From a virus, in IMG/VR virus record IMGVR_UViG_3300008339_009656, positions 1-35,386 of that record: a stretch of DNA of 35,386 nt; one strand, given 5' to 3'. Each line of letters begins with the position of its first letter. The first letter of the stretch is position 1. Below are positions 10,471 to 25,641 of the stretch, in pieces. A program made the translations under genes and the position numbers. The notes under the pieces were generated by a model. That model saw nothing but the letters and a program-made list of their open reading frames with translations. It was not told the origin of the DNA and did not search any database.

Positions 10471-10883
10471 TGGTGGACCTAGTGAGCTCCGACTCTCACG
10501 TCCGGTTCGTCTTGTTTAAAAGACAACTACATGCTTAGGTTGGTATTTTCTAATACCCCAAACTATTTGGTTTTTTTTTGACCAAAAACAAAGTTAATTT
10601 GTTCTTCACCATCGTAAATTAACAACCAATGGATGACTCAATTTTGGGTTTAGTCATTCTCTACCTTTGTTGAGACTTCTGTTCCAAGGTTATGTGTCCA
10701 CCGACCCGCCGTTTCCGTACCTAATCTAGGCTACAGTAACTTCTTCAGTTGCAATTAAACCAACCACTGAAAGGTTATCTAATACGTTGCCGTATATTGT
10801 TTGAATCAGTTTTTAACGAGATTAATTCAGTCCCGGCATGCTCCCTTTATTCAACCAACGCCCGTCAAATCCGATATAGGCCC
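10471..10883 (-). ncRNA. ssrA: Transfer-messenger RNA (tmRNA)
   Basis: About 413 nt on the minus strand. The ends pair as a tRNA-like acceptor stem: 5' GGGCCTA (10877-10883) with TAGGTCC just before the encoded ACCA (10471-10481). Conserved tmRNA signatures are present in order: GGATTTGACGGG near the 5' end, GCATGCCG, CTCGTTAAAAA, and near the 3' end CTAAGCATGTAGT (10526-10538) followed by CCGGACG. tmRNA rescues stalled ribosomes and tags nascent proteins. The tag is not the usual host type ending in ALAA. In the frame whose UAA (10775-10777) aligns with the E. coli stop, the tag would read DSNNIRQRIR (10807-10775); two other frames are possible. The T-arm (GTGAG/CTCAC) has an unusual 8-base loop AGTCGGAG without TTC. 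A host-type promoter lies upstream and a terminator directly downstream. The identity is secure; the tag frame is not. Confidence 0.93.
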
Positions 10884-14206: not shown

Positions 14207-16426
14207 TTAACTTTTTTTCTTTTTTGTTGGTTTTTTTACTTTAACTTCCGTTTTTTTGTCTTTTTCATTATATGATAAAATAAACTTGGAGCCTTTTTCT
14301 GGGTTATCGTTTAAGATTTTATCGGTTACAGCGTCGTCTACCCACTTTTGAATTGTTCTCTTTAATATACGTGCACCAAACCTTGTGTCGGTACCAACGG
14401 ATATGATGTGTTTTTTCAAAGTTTCATCAACTTCCAATTCAAATTCAATACCATTAATTCGTTTATATACTTTTTCAAGTTCAAGATCAACAATTTGTAA
14501 CAAATCACTTTCATTTAAGTCCTTGAAATAAATAATCTCATCAAAACGGTTAATGAACTCTGGGGCAAACTTTTTAAATAATTCTTTTTCTAGAAGTGAT
14601 TTTATTTCTTCTTCCTTTTTTTCTGTTTTGGTACTTGTTGAAAATCCAACACCAGTTCCAAAATCTTGAAGAACTCTAGTCCCAACATTTGAAGTCATTA
14701 AAATAATGCAATTTTTAAAATTGATTTTTCTTCCGTGTCCGTCAGTTAAAAATCCTTCATCCAACATTTGTAAAAACACATTAAATATTTCCGGATGTGC
14801 CTTTTCAATTTCATCTAACAAAATAACCGAATATGGTTTGTTCTTGATTTTATTTAAGAATGGAGAACCGTCTTCATAACCAACATATCCGGGTGCCGTT
14901 CCAGTTAATTTTGATGTTGCAATTTTATCTGAAAATTCACTCATATCAAGTCGGATAAGTGCGTCCTCACTATTAAACATATGTTTTGCCAATTGTTTTG
15001 CCAACTCAGTTTTACCAACGCCTGAGTTACCAATTAATAATCCACTAAAAATTGGTTTCTTTGGATCATTTAAACCAACCTTGTTTCGCTGGATCGCTCT
15101 TGCGATTTTACTTACCGCGTCATCCTGTCCAATTACTTTTGTTGATAAGGTTTCCTTCAATGTTTTTAATTGTTCGGTCTCATCTGTTGTTATTTTTGAG
15201 ATTGGAATTTTTGTCATTAATGAAACAACGTCATATACCACATCTTCGGTAACTTCTCTTTTAAATAAGTTTCTATTTTTTTCAAACTGAGCTTTTTCTC
15301 TTTCCAAATCAGTTAAAACCTTCCTTTCTTTGTCTCTAAGATTTGCGGCTTCTTCATAACGTTGACTATTAATAACTCTAACCTTTTCTTCTTTAATTTC
15401 TTGAGCTTGTCTTTTTAAATCCTCAATAATTTCTGGTAATTTAATTTCAACTTGCGATCTGGCACCAACCTCATCAATAATATCAAAAGCCTTATCTGGA
15501 AATTCTCTGTCCGTAATATATCGGTCGGCCAACTCAACACAAAGTTTTAAAATGTCCTCAGTATAACTAACTTTGTGGTGATCTTCATATCTTTCTTTTG
15601 AGTTTTGAAGTATTTGTAATGTTTCTTCTTTGGTTGATGGATCAACCATTACTTTTTGGAATCTTCTTTCAAGTGCACCATCCTTTTCAATGTTTTTTCT
15701 ATATTCCTCCAAGGTTGTCGCGCCAATACATTGTAATTCACCTCTTGATAAAGCCGGTTTAAATATGTTTGAAGCATCCATTGAACCTGACGCATTTCCT
15801 GCACCAATCATTGTGTGGATTTCATCAATAAAGATGATGATATCTGGATTATTATAAAGTTCCTCCATAATGACCTTCATCCTTTCTTCAAACTGACCTC
15901 TGTATTTTGTTCCAGCAACAATTGATGTCATATCCAATGAAACAATTCGTTTTCCGGATAAATTTTGAGGACAATCACCTTCAAATATTTTCTTTGCCAG
16001 ACCTTCAATTATGGCAGTTTTACCACAATTGTGAGAAACGACACCATTTGATATGTATTTTCTTTCATTGTCCAATACTTCAAGATCAAATGTATTGTGT
16101 ACACCAATATCTTCTTTTTCAACGACTTCATACATATTATTATCTTCAAAATAAATTAAATCACCAATATTAAGGTTTTTTAAACGAACCCAATACGATT
16201 CATTTAAAACCTCAACATTTTCATTATTTATTGATGATTCAACCTCAACCAAGTGATCCTCGGAACCAGAAAGTTCGGTACCATTTGAAAGTTTTATTTT
16301 ATAACAATTTTTGTTTTGTTTCTTAAATAGGTTACCAACAAGTTTGAAACCAGATGGTGTTTTAATTTTATACGTCCCTCCTTCATTTTCAATTAAATTA
16401 AAAAATTCTTCAATTTTGATTTTCAT
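14207..16426 (-). CDS. ClpC-like ATPase, C-terminal part, fused to split intein C-fragment
   Basis: A 739-residue protein. Residues 1-133 are the C-terminal part of an intein (TPSGFKLVG; block B SGSEDH; C-terminal block ending NGVVSHN), and Cys134 is the +1 extein residue. The extein starts CGKTAIIEGLAKK, the second half of a Walker A motif whose first half (GEPG) is in the gene at 16456-16749. It continues as a class I Clp ATPase: Walker B IIIFIDEIHTM, a UVR-like middle segment (SQRYEEAANLRDKER), second Walker A GNSGVGKTELAK, Walker B VILLDEIEKAHP, sensor region and a basic tail (KKPTKKKKS). A VGF near GTGVGFSTST could be the ClpP-docking loop. After trans-splicing the ATPase would be about 679 residues, lacking the Clp N-domain. 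It is probably an unfoldase working with host ClpP. It starts 29 bases after its partner's stop. Confidence 0.93.
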   Translation of the reverse strand: MKIKIEEFFNLIENEGGTYKIKTPSGFKLVGNLFKKQNKNCYKIKLSNGTELSGSEDHLVEVESSINNENVEVLNESYWVRLKNLNIGDLIYFEDNNMYEVVEKEDIGVHNTFDLEVLDNERKYISNGVVSHNCGKTAIIEGLAKKIFEGDCPQNLSGKRIVSLDMTSIVAGTKYRGQFEERMKVIMEELYNNPDIIIFIDEIHTMIGAGNASGSMDASNIFKPALSRGELQCIGATTLEEYRKNIEKDGALERRFQKVMVDPSTKEETLQILQNSKERYEDHHKVSYTEDILKLCVELADRYITDREFPDKAFDIIDEVGARSQVEIKLPEIIEDLKRQAQEIKEEKVRVINSQRYEEAANLRDKERKVLTDLEREKAQFEKNRNLFKREVTEDVVYDVVSLMTKIPISKITTDETEQLKTLKETLSTKVIGQDDAVSKIARAIQRNKVGLNDPKKPIFSGLLIGNSGVGKTELAKQLAKHMFNSEDALIRLDMSEFSDKIATSKLTGTAPGYVGYEDGSPFLNKIKNKPYSVILLDEIEKAHPEIFNVFLQMLDEGFLTDGHGRKINFKNCIILMTSNVGTRVLQDFGTGVGFSTSTKTEKKEEEIKSLLEKELFKKFAPEFINRFDEIIYFKDLNESDLLQIVDLELEKVYKRINGIEFELEVDETLKKHIISVGTDTRFGARILKRTIQKWVDDAVTDKILNDNPEKGSKFILSYNEKDKKTEVKVKKPTKKKKS
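16028..16426 (-). other. Split intein C-fragment (IntC, 133 residues)
   Basis: From its own ATG to the terminal His-Asn, with Cys as the following extein residue. It holds most of the intein fold, including block B (SGSEDH) and blocks F/G (NTFDLEVLDN...NGVVSHN). There is no endonuclease domain. The proportions resemble the IntC of atypical split inteins such as AceL-TerL. Confidence 0.9.
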
Positions 16427-16455
16427 AATATTTTTATAAATTTTTTGTTATGTTA

Positions 16456-16749
16456 TTAGATGGTCTCAATATTATGAGTATTCACATCAGAAACTTTTTC
16501 TACTTCAATCCACGTATCACCTAAAACACATCCAGGTTCACCAAGTATGATTGGATTATTCTTTTTTCTTCTGGATAAAATCTGAGCAATCCTATTAATT
16601 TCATCTTCTCTACCAACAACCGGATCCAACTTACCTTCTTCGGCCAATTTTATTAAGTCTCTTGAAAAGTTATCAAGAACCGGGGTTTTACTTTTGGAAT
16701 CCGTGTTTTTACTTTTGGATTTGTCCATATCATCAAATGACTCAATCAT
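16456..16749 (-). CDS. ClpC-like ATPase, N-terminal part, fused to split intein N-fragment
   Basis: A 97-residue protein. Residues 1-22 are a hydrophilic Lys/Ser-rich start with no Clp N-domain. Residues 23-73 are the beginning of a Clp AAA+ domain ([49 protein letters not shown]), ending in the middle of Walker A. Cys74 then begins a 24-residue intein N-fragment ([17 protein letters not shown]...) that carries the block A pattern C-x-x-GDT and ends at a normal TAA. The partner gene 29 bases downstream carries the rest of the intein and the CGKT half of Walker A, so an active ATPase can form only by protein trans-splicing. Directly upstream is a 229-base gap shared with the divergent UVR-motif gene. 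Confidence 0.92.
16459..16530 (-). other. Split intein N-fragment (IntN, 24 residues)
   Basis: Starts with nucleophile Cys74 of the upstream gene ([10 protein letters not shown], block A). At 24 residues it is far shorter than the ~100-residue IntN of canonical split inteins such as DnaE, and matches the atypical class with ~25-residue N-fragments. Confidence 0.9.
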
Positions 16750-16978: not shown

Positions 16979-17395
16979 ATGTTATTTAGAAATTTTCACA
17001 ACTTAAACCGTCTATTTAGAGACTTTGATGATTTATTTTTTGAAAATCCCACCCTTAAAGGTAAAGAAAAAATCCAAACCGGAATAGATGAAGATGGTGA
17101 ATGGGAAAAGAGATCATTTGTATCTGACTCTGGACTATTCTCTTATTCATTCATCACAAGAAAATCAAACAAACCACACAAAACAAATGAAATTGAAAGT
17201 TTAAAACTGGAACTTGAACAATGTGTTGAAAAACAAGATTTTGAAAGGGCGGTTGAATTAAGAGACAAGATTAAACTATTGGAGGAGAATAAGGAAGAAC
17301 TATCAAAACTTAATGAAGAACTAGAAGAAGCAATTCAAAAACAAGATTTTGAAAAAGCAATAGAAGTAAGAGATAAAATTAAGAGTTTAAAATAA
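16979..17395 (+). CDS. UVR-motif protein (possible McsA-like Clp adaptor)
   Basis: A 138-residue protein. The N-terminal 70 residues are Phe-rich (MLFRNFHNLNRLFRDFDDLF) and contain GEWEKRSFVSDSGLFSYSF. The C-terminal half has two tandem UVR motifs: LEQCVEKQDFERAVELRDKI (about 80-100) and LEEAIQKQDFEKAIEVRDKI (about 114-136). UVR motifs occur in UvrB/UvrC, in the ClpC middle domain and in the ClpC adaptor McsA. Because this gene is divergent from a ClpC-like ATPase that carries its own UVR-like segment, an adaptor or regulator role is the most attractive reading (inference). It lacks the zinc-binding cysteines of McsA. It ends in a strong terminator as a single-gene unit. Confidence 0.82.
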   Translation: MLFRNFHNLNRLFRDFDDLFFENPTLKGKEKIQTGIDEDGEWEKRSFVSDSGLFSYSFITRKSNKPHKTNEIESLKLELEQCVEKQDFERAVELRDKIKLLEENKEELSKLNEELEEAIQKQDFEKAIEVRDKIKSLK

Positions 17396-22662: not shown

Positions 22663-25641
22663 ATGGCAGAAAATAAATTAACGGTTTGGCAGAGGTTAGG
22701 GAAAGTATTTGGTCCGACATCCACATTGGATCAACAATCACCTGTGTTTAAATTTGATAAGAAACAATTATTAAAGACAACAGATAAAAATGAGTTTGAA
22801 AGGGAGAAACTTGAAGCCCAACAAACCATGTATATTGGTAAACAATGGCAGAAGGTTGAGAGTAATTTATACCAACAAGCGGTGTACTATGAACCAACCA
22901 GAATGGCTTCATATTATGATTATGAGGCCATGGAGTACTCAATCCATGGGGACACCAAAATTGCCACTCCTGATGGTTTTATGACCATAAAAGAGCTTTC
23001 AGACAAGGGTAGAGATTATGAATTTATAACATACGCTTATGACCATAATTTGAAAAAAGTAGTACCAGCAATCGCCAGAAATGCTCACTATACCAGAGAT
23101 GAAATGGCTTATAAAATTACGTTTGATGATGGGTCACATATTATCGCAACTTATGGTCATAGGTTCTTAAAAAGGGATGGTGTTTTTTGTGAGGTTGAAA
23201 ACCTTAAACCGGGGGATTCAATGATGCCATTTTATAGAAAATCTTTTTACAATAATCAAAATTACCATTGGGTTTATACTTGTAATTCAAACGAGGGTCA
23301 TCATGGTTGGATATCTGAACACAATTTAATTGCGGAGTGGTATTATAAAAGAAAAATTAATGAAGACGAAGAAGTTCATCATAAAGATTTCAATGGTAAA
23401 AATAACAAACCGGAAAATTTACAAATAATGAATATTTCCGAACATAGAGCTTATCATGCGAGATTAAACAACGAAAAATTATGGGCAAACCCCGAATATA
23501 GACAAAAAATGTCTGAAGTTGCTAGAAGAACCGGTAAGTATAGTTGGGAAGGGAAAAGAGCTAAAGAGAATAATCCGGCATATATAAAATTATCATTTGA
23601 TTTGATTGTTGAAAAAGCAAGAGAACATAGAACGTTAATGGAAACTGCCACCTCACTTGGTGTTTCATTTAGAAAAATACAGAATGAACTTAGATTCAAT
23701 GGGTTTAAAAATTGGTTTGATTTTTTGGATGTTTATGGAATTGATAAAAGTAATAGTGATACTTACGGTGAAAAAAACAATAACTTCAAAAAAATCGCTT
23801 GGGATTTATTAATTGAAATTGCTAGACAAGAAAATAGTATTACAAATACGGCCAAAAGATTGAATGTAAGTAGAAATAAAATTTTAAAAACAATAAAAGA
23901 AGGGGGATTTAATAATTGGATTACATTTTTGGAATCATATGGTATTGAAAAATCAAAACACCACCACCCAAAAAATGAAGAACCAGTTATTAATCACAAA
24001 ATAGTATCAATTGAACCATATGGTGTTGTACCAGTTTATGACTTAACTGTGCCGGGTTATAAGAACTTCGCTACAGATACCATTTTCTCACACAATACAC
24101 CTGAGATCTCTGCCGCTCTTGATATTTACTCTGAAGAATCCACCACTCCTGACCAAGACGGACACATTTTAAAAGTCTACTCTGAATCAAAAAGAATTAA
24201 ACAAGTATTGGTTGATTTGTTTGTAAATAGACTTGATATAAACACCAATTTACCGATGTGGACAAGAAACACTTGTAAATTTGGCGACAATTTCACATAT
24301 TTAAAGTTAGACCCAGAAAAAGGGGTTGTTGGGTGTCAACAATTACCAAATATCCAAATTGAAAGATTGGAAAAGGGGATGAGATTTCAACCGGACAAAT
24401 ATTCACAAGAAATGGAAAACGATGCTTTGAAATTTGTTTGGAAAGAAAAAAATATGGAGTTCAATACGTGGGAAATTGCCCACTTTAGAATACTTGGAGA
24501 TGACCGAAAATTACCTTATGGGACATCTATGTTGGAGAAGGCTAGACGTATATGGAAACAGCTCCTTTTATCGGAAGATGCGATGATGATTTACCGGGTA
24601 TCAAGAGCACCAGAAAGAAGGGTATTTAAAGTATTTGTCGGAAATATGGATGACAAAGATGTTGATTCATATGTACAACGTGTGGCAAACAAATTTAAAA
24701 GAGATCAGATTGCGGACCCTAAAACTGGAAATGTGGATATGAGATACAACCAATTGGCCGTAGATCAAGATTACTTTATCCCGGTTAGAGACCCTTCCCA
24801 AACCAATCCAATTGAAACATTGCCGGGTGGTACAAACTTAGCCGAAATTGCTGATATTGAATATATCCAAAAGAAACTGGTAACTGCCCTTAGAATACCA
24901 AAGGCGTATTTAGGTTTTGAAGAAGCAGTAGGTAATGGACAAAACTTATCTTTACTTGATATTAGATTTGCAAGAACAATCAACAAAATTCAAAAATCAA
25001 TGTTGGCCGAACTTAATAAGATTGCCATTATTCATTTATTTTTATTAGGGTTTGAAGATGAACTAACAAACTTTACGTTGGGGTTACACAATCCATCAAA
25101 ACAATCCGAACTTCTTTCATTGGAATTGTGGAAAGAAAAAATTGAATTATACAAAAATGCGGTAGCTGAAATCGCAAATTCGGTTGCACCAACCTCAGCT
25201 TCTTGGGCTAAAAAGAATATTCTAGGTTTCTCAGATGAGGAGATCAGATTGGATTTACAACAACAACGAATTGAAAGGGCTGTTGCAGCTGAACTTGCTA
25301 AAACACCTGAAGTCATTACAAAAACTGGATTGTTTGATAATATTGATCAATTATATGGTAAAAAACCAGGTGAACCGGCAGGTGAAGCACCAGAAGGTGG
25401 AGAAGAACCTGGAGGAATGCCACCAATGGGTGGAGGATCTGAACTAGGAGGACCACCCCCACCACCGGGACCAGAACCAGGAGGTGAAGTAGGAGTAACA
25501 CCAGAATCAACCAAGAAAAATGATTTAAATTTAATTCTGGAAGATAACTTATATTATGGTAAAACCTCTCTTGATTTATCAAAGGGTAGATTAACCATTA
25601 ATGAAATTGATGACAAATTAAAAGATTTATTGGATAAGTGA
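22663..25641 (+). CDS. Portal protein (T4 gp20-like) interrupted by an HNH intein
   Basis: A 992-residue precursor. Residues 1-92 and 479-992 are the portal. The junction restores YDYEAMEY-TPEISAALDIYSEES, the conserved gp20-type segment. The C-extein has IAHFRILGDDRKLPYGTSML, KARRIWKQLLLSEDAMMIYR, RVSRAPERRVFKVFVGNM and the helical wing, and ends with a Gly/Pro/Glu-rich tail (about 900-950) plus a short C-terminal segment. The portal is the dodecameric vertex that nucleates head assembly and channels DNA. Residues 93-478 are an intein (described separately) whose removal yields a ~606-residue portal. It follows the terminase by 41 bases and precedes the other head genes, as in T4. Confidence 0.95.
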   Translation: MAENKLTVWQRLGKVFGPTSTLDQQSPVFKFDKKQLLKTTDKNEFEREKLEAQQTMYIGKQWQKVESNLYQQAVYYEPTRMASYYDYEAMEYSIHGDTKIATPDGFMTIKELSDKGRDYEFITYAYDHNLKKVVPAIARNAHYTRDEMAYKITFDDGSHIIATYGHRFLKRDGVFCEVENLKPGDSMMPFYRKSFYNNQNYHWVYTCNSNEGHHGWISEHNLIAEWYYKRKINEDEEVHHKDFNGKNNKPENLQIMNISEHRAYHARLNNEKLWANPEYRQKMSEVARRTGKYSWEGKRAKENNPAYIKLSFDLIVEKAREHRTLMETATSLGVSFRKIQNELRFNGFKNWFDFLDVYGIDKSNSDTYGEKNNNFKKIAWDLLIEIARQENSITNTAKRLNVSRNKILKTIKEGGFNNWITFLESYGIEKSKHHHPKNEEPVINHKIVSIEPYGVVPVYDLTVPGYKNFATDTIFSHNTPEISAALDIYSEESTTPDQDGHILKVYSESKRIKQVLVDLFVNRLDINTNLPMWTRNTCKFGDNFTYLKLDPEKGVVGCQQLPNIQIERLEKGMRFQPDKYSQEMENDALKFVWKEKNMEFNTWEIAHFRILGDDRKLPYGTSMLEKARRIWKQLLLSEDAMMIYRVSRAPERRVFKVFVGNMDDKDVDSYVQRVANKFKRDQIADPKTGNVDMRYNQLAVDQDYFIPVRDPSQTNPIETLPGGTNLAEIADIEYIQKKLVTALRIPKAYLGFEEAVGNGQNLSLLDIRFARTINKIQKSMLAELNKIAIIHLFLLGFEDELTNFTLGLHNPSKQSELLSLELWKEKIELYKNAVAEIANSVAPTSASWAKKNILGFSDEEIRLDLQQQRIERAVAAELAKTPEVITKTGLFDNIDQLYGKKPGEPAGEAPEGGEEPGGMPPMGGGSELGGPPPPPGPEPGGEVGVTPESTKKNDLNLILEDNLYYGKTSLDLSKGRLTINEIDDKLKDLLDK
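22939..24096 (+). other. Intein with HNH endonuclease in the portal gene
   Basis: 386 residues. The intein starts with Ser93 (SIHGDTKIATPDGFMTIKEL, block A), has block B TYGHRFL, and ends with VPVYDLTVPGYKNF...IFSHN followed by Thr479 as the +1 residue. Nucleophile 1 is Ser and +1 is Thr, rather than the commoner Cys pair. Between the splicing blocks is an HNH endonuclease (EHNLIAEWYYK...EVHHKDFNGKNNKPENLQIM) and two tandem ~50-residue helix-turn-helix repeats (LGVSFRKIQNELRFNGFKNW and LNVSRNKILKTIKEGGFNNW), the likely DNA-recognition part. It looks intact, so it may be an active homing element. Confidence 0.92.

Follow-up and report, generated by a model that had tools for sequence, protein, structure and literature searches.

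The window analysed here (the whole 35,386-base IMG/VR virus record IMGVR_UViG_3300008339_009656), which was read as coming from a large bacterial virus (phage), contains a gene for a ClpC-like ATPase that is broken, within the Walker A motif of its first ATPase ring (D1), by the two halves of an intein. The explanation that we favour, with a probability of roughly 0.88, is that a natural split class 1 intein in this motif rebuilds a Clp protein of 679 amino acids (aa) by trans-splicing, and that the split was left behind by a homing endonuclease that has since been lost. The locus is composed of the following features:

16749-16456, minus strand: N-gene open reading frame (ORF), 97 aa, comprising 73 aa of Clp ending in IILGEPG and a 24-aa IntN (N-terminal intein fragment), followed by TAA
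16531-16749, minus strand: N-extein, the 73-aa N-terminal piece of the ClpC-like ATPase, with the first half of the D1 Walker A motif
16459-16530, minus strand: IntN, 24 aa, with block A and the nucleophile Cys1; its stop codon TAA is at 16458-16456
16427-16455, minus strand: A/T-rich gap of 29 nucleotides (nt), where relatives have an endonuclease gene of ~1.2 kb or its remnant
16426-14207, minus strand: C-gene ORF, 739 aa, comprising a 133-aa IntC (C-terminal intein fragment) and 606 aa of Clp
16028-16426, minus strand: IntC, 133 aa, with an SxxH block B at residues 55-58, a DLEV block F region and a terminal SHN
14210-16027, minus strand: C-extein, 606 aa from CGKTAIIEG (Cys+1), i.e. the rest of D1, a short middle domain, D2 and D2-small
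15008-15031, minus strand: D2 Walker A motif GNSGVGKT, intact and empty in the window, but occupied by a second split intein in relatives

Anatomy of the split intein and its host protein

A preliminary description of this DNA, made from the sequence alone, had proposed this arrangement, and its two ORFs, fragment lengths, gap, change of frame, spliced length and GEPG|CGKT junction were all recovered exactly to the base. Each half has its own start and stop, and the two lie in different frames with two stops in a row between them. IntC ends in NGVVSHN, after which the Clp sequence resumes with CGKTAIIEG, and joining the exteins (73 + 606 aa) restores GEPG|CGKT exactly. Atypically split inteins are encoded by two separate genes, with an IntN of about 15-37 aa and a long IntC (PMC13014065), and the separate 24- and 133-aa fragments of the window correspond to this definition. 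The C-gene matched the TIGR01443 intein_Cterm model with 16.3 bits (cut-off 15.6), with Clp following the match, and TIGR01445 intein_Nterm, below its cut-off, over residues 3-60. Cys1, the SHN and Cys+1 are invariant across all aligned lineages, which is the motif pattern of class 1 inteins. Judged by every sequence criterion tested, the intein of the window is intact; it belongs among the atypically split inteins, and its host is apparently new.

One relative (L129) carries the same intein uninterrupted, within a single ORF of 829 aa. The AlphaFold model of this contiguous form, which was aligned with the fragments of the window and of other relatives, reached a pLDDT of 89.0 and a pTM of 0.84. 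Its best match in the PDB was VidaL (6vgv; E 2e-12, TM-score of 0.90 normalised to VidaL, rmsd of 2.2 Å), followed by gp41-1, and inteins and other HINT domains dominated the matches; the modelled structure has the features of the HINT fold. In the model, the first strands derive from IntN and IntC begins at the strand before the first helix, a predicted split position close to S1, as in VidaL and PolB16 (PMC13014065).

VidaL, named for comparison in the preliminary description, is the best match of the window intein by sequence (E 1.5e-8, ~21% identity) and, through the L129 model, also by fold. Like the window intein, VidaL (PDB 6vgv and 6vgw) is Cys-dependent, has a short IntN (16 aa, compared with 24 aa here) and is split just after strand beta-2 (S1, PMC13014065). 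Unlike VidaL, the host is here a Clp ATPase, and in relatives an endonuclease gene lies between the halves. AceL-TerL and GOS-TerL, whose hosts are of the TerL type and which were compared by description only, likewise have a short IntN (25 aa in AceL-TerL), but they are split after helix alpha-1 (S2, PMC13014065), whereas the break considered here, as judged from the model, precedes alpha-1.

The identification of the host as a phage ClpC-like unfoldase is supported by sequence comparisons. The N-gene matched ClpB/ClpA-type models of NCBIfam (E 9e-21), the nearest solved Clp by sequence was ClpC/MecB (E 2e-177), as expected from the ClpC-like host proposed before, and library matches located two AAA domains and D2-small. 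A short UVR-type middle domain and a ClpP-binding G-F loop were sought by eye, and QRYEEAANLRDKE and GVGF were read. There was no Pfam match to the Clp_N domain, i.e. the window Clp is without the N-terminal domain of ClpC, and the N-gene starts only ~20 residues ahead of the conserved start of D1. The split is confined to the ATP site of D1. The earlier statement that neither half has a complete ATP site proved wrong, as the C-half contains the whole D2 site (GNSGVGKT at 15031-15008).

The preliminary description had also called the location non-standard, and this view needs to be divided. The P-loop as an unusual insertion site was rejected: inteins are "classically" inserted at P-loops, and ATP-binding proteins are the hosts of ~70% of the inteins of bacteria and archaea (PMC5050341). 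The choice of host appears to be new, since a Clp ATPase carrying an intein was not found in the open-licence literature searched. Inteins of ClpP, known from algal chloroplasts and bacteria, also have a host from the Clp protease system, but ClpP is a peptidase and an unrelated protein, and a survey of eukaryotic and organellar inteins has ClpP but not ClpA/B/C among the hosts (PMC5784728). Clp/HSP100 ATPases are apparently a previously unreported intein host.

Recurrence, selection and spread

IMG/VR was scanned with the C-gene and with an alignment of IntC. The search of phage metagenomes, which the preliminary description had suggested, yielded 16 non-identical intein alleles from many separate metagenomes (15 after dereplication at 98%), more than chance would produce. 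Among the 15 split lineages tabulated, IntN has 24 aa in 14 and 26 aa in L093, and IntC has 133 aa in all 15. The D1 site is uninterrupted in 71 loci, reading GEPGCGKT in nearly all of them and GDPGVGKT in L078; ~44 distinct alleles are without this intein, many of them with the same neighbouring genes. The preliminary description had missed that the gene belongs to a large phage family, whose versions are empty, contiguous, or split with an endonuclease that is present or decayed, and that a homing endonuclease best accounts for the split. Its proposal that the D1 P-loop is interrupted by an intein of the atypically split kind, with a short IntN, was supported. As to a bacterial origin, no relative was revealed among 84,980 species genomes of bacteria and archaea, a weak negative given that they were scanned with only two short patterns.

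This recurrence bears on the possibility that a frameshift or an assembly error disrupted a contiguous (cis) intein, the true genome having one open frame. A contiguous intein does exist in L129, and the gap does not change the frame between the halves in L003 and L117. However, the identical split occurs in two other IMG/VR records (L001 and L002), and ~15 diverged lineages from separate assemblies share the split point. Moreover, two in-frame stops separate the halves in L003, two consecutive stops and a change of frame do so in the window, and IntC starts with MK in all split lineages. Such an error was rejected as extremely improbable.

A second alternative is that the split intein is dead and that the two Clp pieces assemble as separate, unjoined subunits. 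In principle, split proteins can complement each other without a covalent bond, and the D2 ATP site is already complete in the C-half by itself. Against this, the dN/dS values between the window and L003, neither of which has an endonuclease, were 0.088 for IntN, 0.055 for IntC and 0.030 for the C-extein (rough values, as dS is saturated in this pair), and both intein fragments are clearly constrained by purifying selection, with Cys1, SHN and Cys+1 invariant. A D1 P-loop carrying intein residues would also not be expected to bind ATP normally, and we consider a dead intein highly unlikely.

For the favoured explanation, we infer a splicing chemistry in which two proteins would be made, IntN and IntC would fold into one VidaL-like intein, an acyl group would move from Cys1 to Cys+1 and the terminal Asn of SHN would cyclise, the Clp pieces being joined as GEPG-CGKT. 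Both ATPase rings would be complete in the resulting Clp of 679 aa. The intein would once have been mobile, a free-standing endonuclease gene between its halves driving homing into intein-free alleles. In the lineage of the window, whose ancestor would have had this gene, deletion would have reduced it to 29 nt, and the split, now fixed, would have to go on splicing for D1 to work; without splicing, Clp would be disabled.

Besides the saturated dS, several points weigh against this explanation. Structure prediction, another check suggested beforehand, succeeded in one relative and not in another: the good model is that of the contiguous L129, not of the two chains of the window, and the halves of L003, fused through two stops, were modelled poorly (pLDDT of 61.5), with VidaL still the best Foldseek match. 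Fusing the halves of the window for modelling was ruled out by the change of frame. Furthermore, the block F His, present in L129, is replaced by Arg or Asn in the split forms, so that their C-terminal splicing step could be slower, and the 29-nt gap of the window has no recognisable endonuclease sequence. Finally, since the window is a 35-kb fragment, a second Clp may be encoded elsewhere in the same phage. In favour of the explanation, eight phage records of 123-296 kb, whose completeness is not established and six of which carry the intein, have one Clp gene each and no spare copy.

The distribution of the intein is sporadic. Its presence on the Clp extein tree requires at least 6-9 changes, and near the window there are three carriers (L003, L005 and the window, which equals L001) among 18 empty alleles. 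In several pairs, identity is higher between the inteins than between the hosts (85% vs 65% for L092/L120, 100% vs 84% for L124/L126 and 81% vs 69% for L005/L088), which fits horizontal spread of the intein. Among the phages sampled for comparison, those with and those without the intein have a common gene order (TerL - 18608 gene - 17751 gene - KTSC gene - (UVR gene) - Clp - M42 peptidase gene), although the flanks of some relatives end before TerL, and the two kinds of Clp therefore look like alleles of a single locus. L129 is placed inside the split forms on the unrooted intein tree, which hints that the contiguous form is a later fusion rather than ancestral.

The split could also act as a regulator, D1 of Clp becoming active only if the synthesis of both halves is properly timed or the redox state is suitable. 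Cys1 and Cys+1 are redox-sensitive in principle, and conditional splicing is described for other inteins, e.g. that of DnaB (PMC6195587). That the intein occurs sporadically, and that many close relatives of its host alleles are empty, argues against a required regulatory role, as a selfish element suffices to explain it. We regard a regulatory role as unlikely; it is compatible with the favoured explanation and not exclusive of it.

A probable endonuclease gene between the halves in relatives

The relatives present several stages: an empty gene, a contiguous intein, a split with an endonuclease, a split with a decayed endonuclease and a bare split. The halves are separated by 1202-1214 nt in seven loci (L087, L088, L095, L115, L122, L130 and L134), and by shorter gaps of 360 nt in L092, 121 nt in L124, 71 nt in L126, 29 nt in the window and 24, 11, 7 and 6 nt in others. 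An intact ORF of ~390-400 aa occupies this space in L088, L095, L130 and L134 (the inserts of L115 and L122 were judged by length alone, not by ORF), and in L134 and L130 its stop is overlapped by the start of the C-half. In L087 the nuclease ORF is frameshifted and broken in two, while L092 retains a recognisable remnant of its C-terminal part. The gap of L124 matches the last 114 nt of the endonuclease insert of L095 with 92% identity, and that of L126 matches the last 65 nt with 94% identity.

The nuclease ORF had no significant Pfam match, and a search of PDB sequences gave T7 endonuclease I at a non-significant E of 0.48. Because a DFY[LI]..YIE pattern recurs towards the C-end of the nuclease ORFs and that of L095 weakly matches a PHROG Holliday junction resolvase (E 5e-5), the product is likely, by inference from sequence, a PD-(D/E)XK-like homing endonuclease. 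A conserved TATTTAT and a short hairpin lie just after the IntN stop and before the endonuclease start in L110 (3769-3826), L111, L115, L122, L125, L130 and L134. Only four pairs are predicted for the hairpin, two of them with a compensatory change; it could control translation of the nuclease.

Dassa et al. reportedly described, in 2009, "fractured genes", in which a free-standing homing endonuclease gene lies between the halves of a split intein. The relatives with a nuclease gene share this organisation of an interrupted gene, and the window probably represents its endonuclease-free end stage. Unlike in those fractured genes, the intein is here split near its N-end and not at the canonical site (PMC13014065), and the nuclease gene is absent from the window.

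The order of events could have been the reverse, the split being older than the endonuclease, which would have entered an existing gap later; the window lineage may then never have had it. Consistent with this, the intein tree is unrooted and no endonuclease sequence was found in the short-gap lineages (the window, L003, L117, L120 and L093). On the other hand, the deepest branch of that tree has endonuclease inserts on either side, and outright deletion remnants are present in L124, L126 and L092. We consider an older split possible but doubtful.

Since the steps from the empty gene through an intein with an endonuclease and a decayed endonuclease to a bare split are preserved in natural alleles, ideas on how atypically split inteins originate can be put to the test. 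In addition, ~15 natural split inteins of one family with a short IntN, together with a contiguous relative, constitute rare material for protein ligation, as a 24-aa IntN can be synthesised.

A second intein family and the gene neighbourhood

Two of the relatives have a second split intein in the Walker A motif of D2 (GVGK|T), with an IntN of ~31-32 aa, an IntC of 148 aa and a nuclease gene of its own between the halves. Breaks are predicted at both Walker A motifs of these genes:

L134, 3499-9034: doubly broken clp
L124, 4601-9006: doubly broken clp

A scan with the D2 IntC found 35 loci, nearly all in Clp-type P-loops, either that of D2 or that of D1, there between K and T. Inteins at both rings were identified in L152, L153, L165, L167 and L168, and in L156 the D2 element is contiguous. 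The nucleases of this second family have an IIEF[DH]G...[YF]H pattern. In the loci with inteins at both rings, the break falls before Thr where the D1 P-loop has Val (GVGK|T) and before Cys where it has Cys (GEPG|CGKT), so that the site follows the available nucleophile. With inteins at both Walker A motifs, some phage Clps would, by prediction, require two trans-splicing reactions among three proteins; Clp/HSP100 ATPases are added to the known hosts together with these predicted three-piece natural assemblies. It may be, and we hold the matter to be evenly balanced, that atypically split inteins can arise when a homing endonuclease gene lands near the N-end of an intein (~S1) instead of the usual site and is then lost, and that the Walker A motifs of both rings of phage Clps are a hotspot of this process, up to the predicted three-polypeptide Clps (L134, L124, L152, L153 and L167).

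The window also encodes T4-type head proteins (terminase, portal, prohead protease and Gp23 capsid protein). A divergent neighbour of clp, the UVR gene (16979-17395, plus strand), encodes two UvrB/UvrC motifs (Pfam UVR, E 1e-19) and adjoins clp in several relatives. Because the middle domain of Clp has a similar motif, an adaptor role of the UVR gene for Clp is possible. ClpP peptidases of their own are encoded by two of the eight large relatives, the parent records of L116 and L122 (G003 and G006).

A tmRNA gene (10471-10883, minus strand; Rfam RF00023, 78.3 bits) lies ~3.3 kb downstream of clp, although ARAGORN made no call for this gene of the window. All 11 related phage records searched had a tmRNA match, nine of them above the cut-off and mostly close to clp. 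The predicted 21-aa tags are conserved and are without the usual ...LAA ending (GNVLDNLSVVGLIATEEVTVA in the window and GNVLNNLETLGLISTQEVTVA in four relatives), and the tag is possibly a dedicated degron for the phage Clp.

The portal gene (22663-25641, plus strand) carries a contiguous intein with an HNH endonuclease at residues ~95-478 (Pfam Intein_splicing, E 7e-15), apparently with Ser1 at its start and SHN|T at its end.
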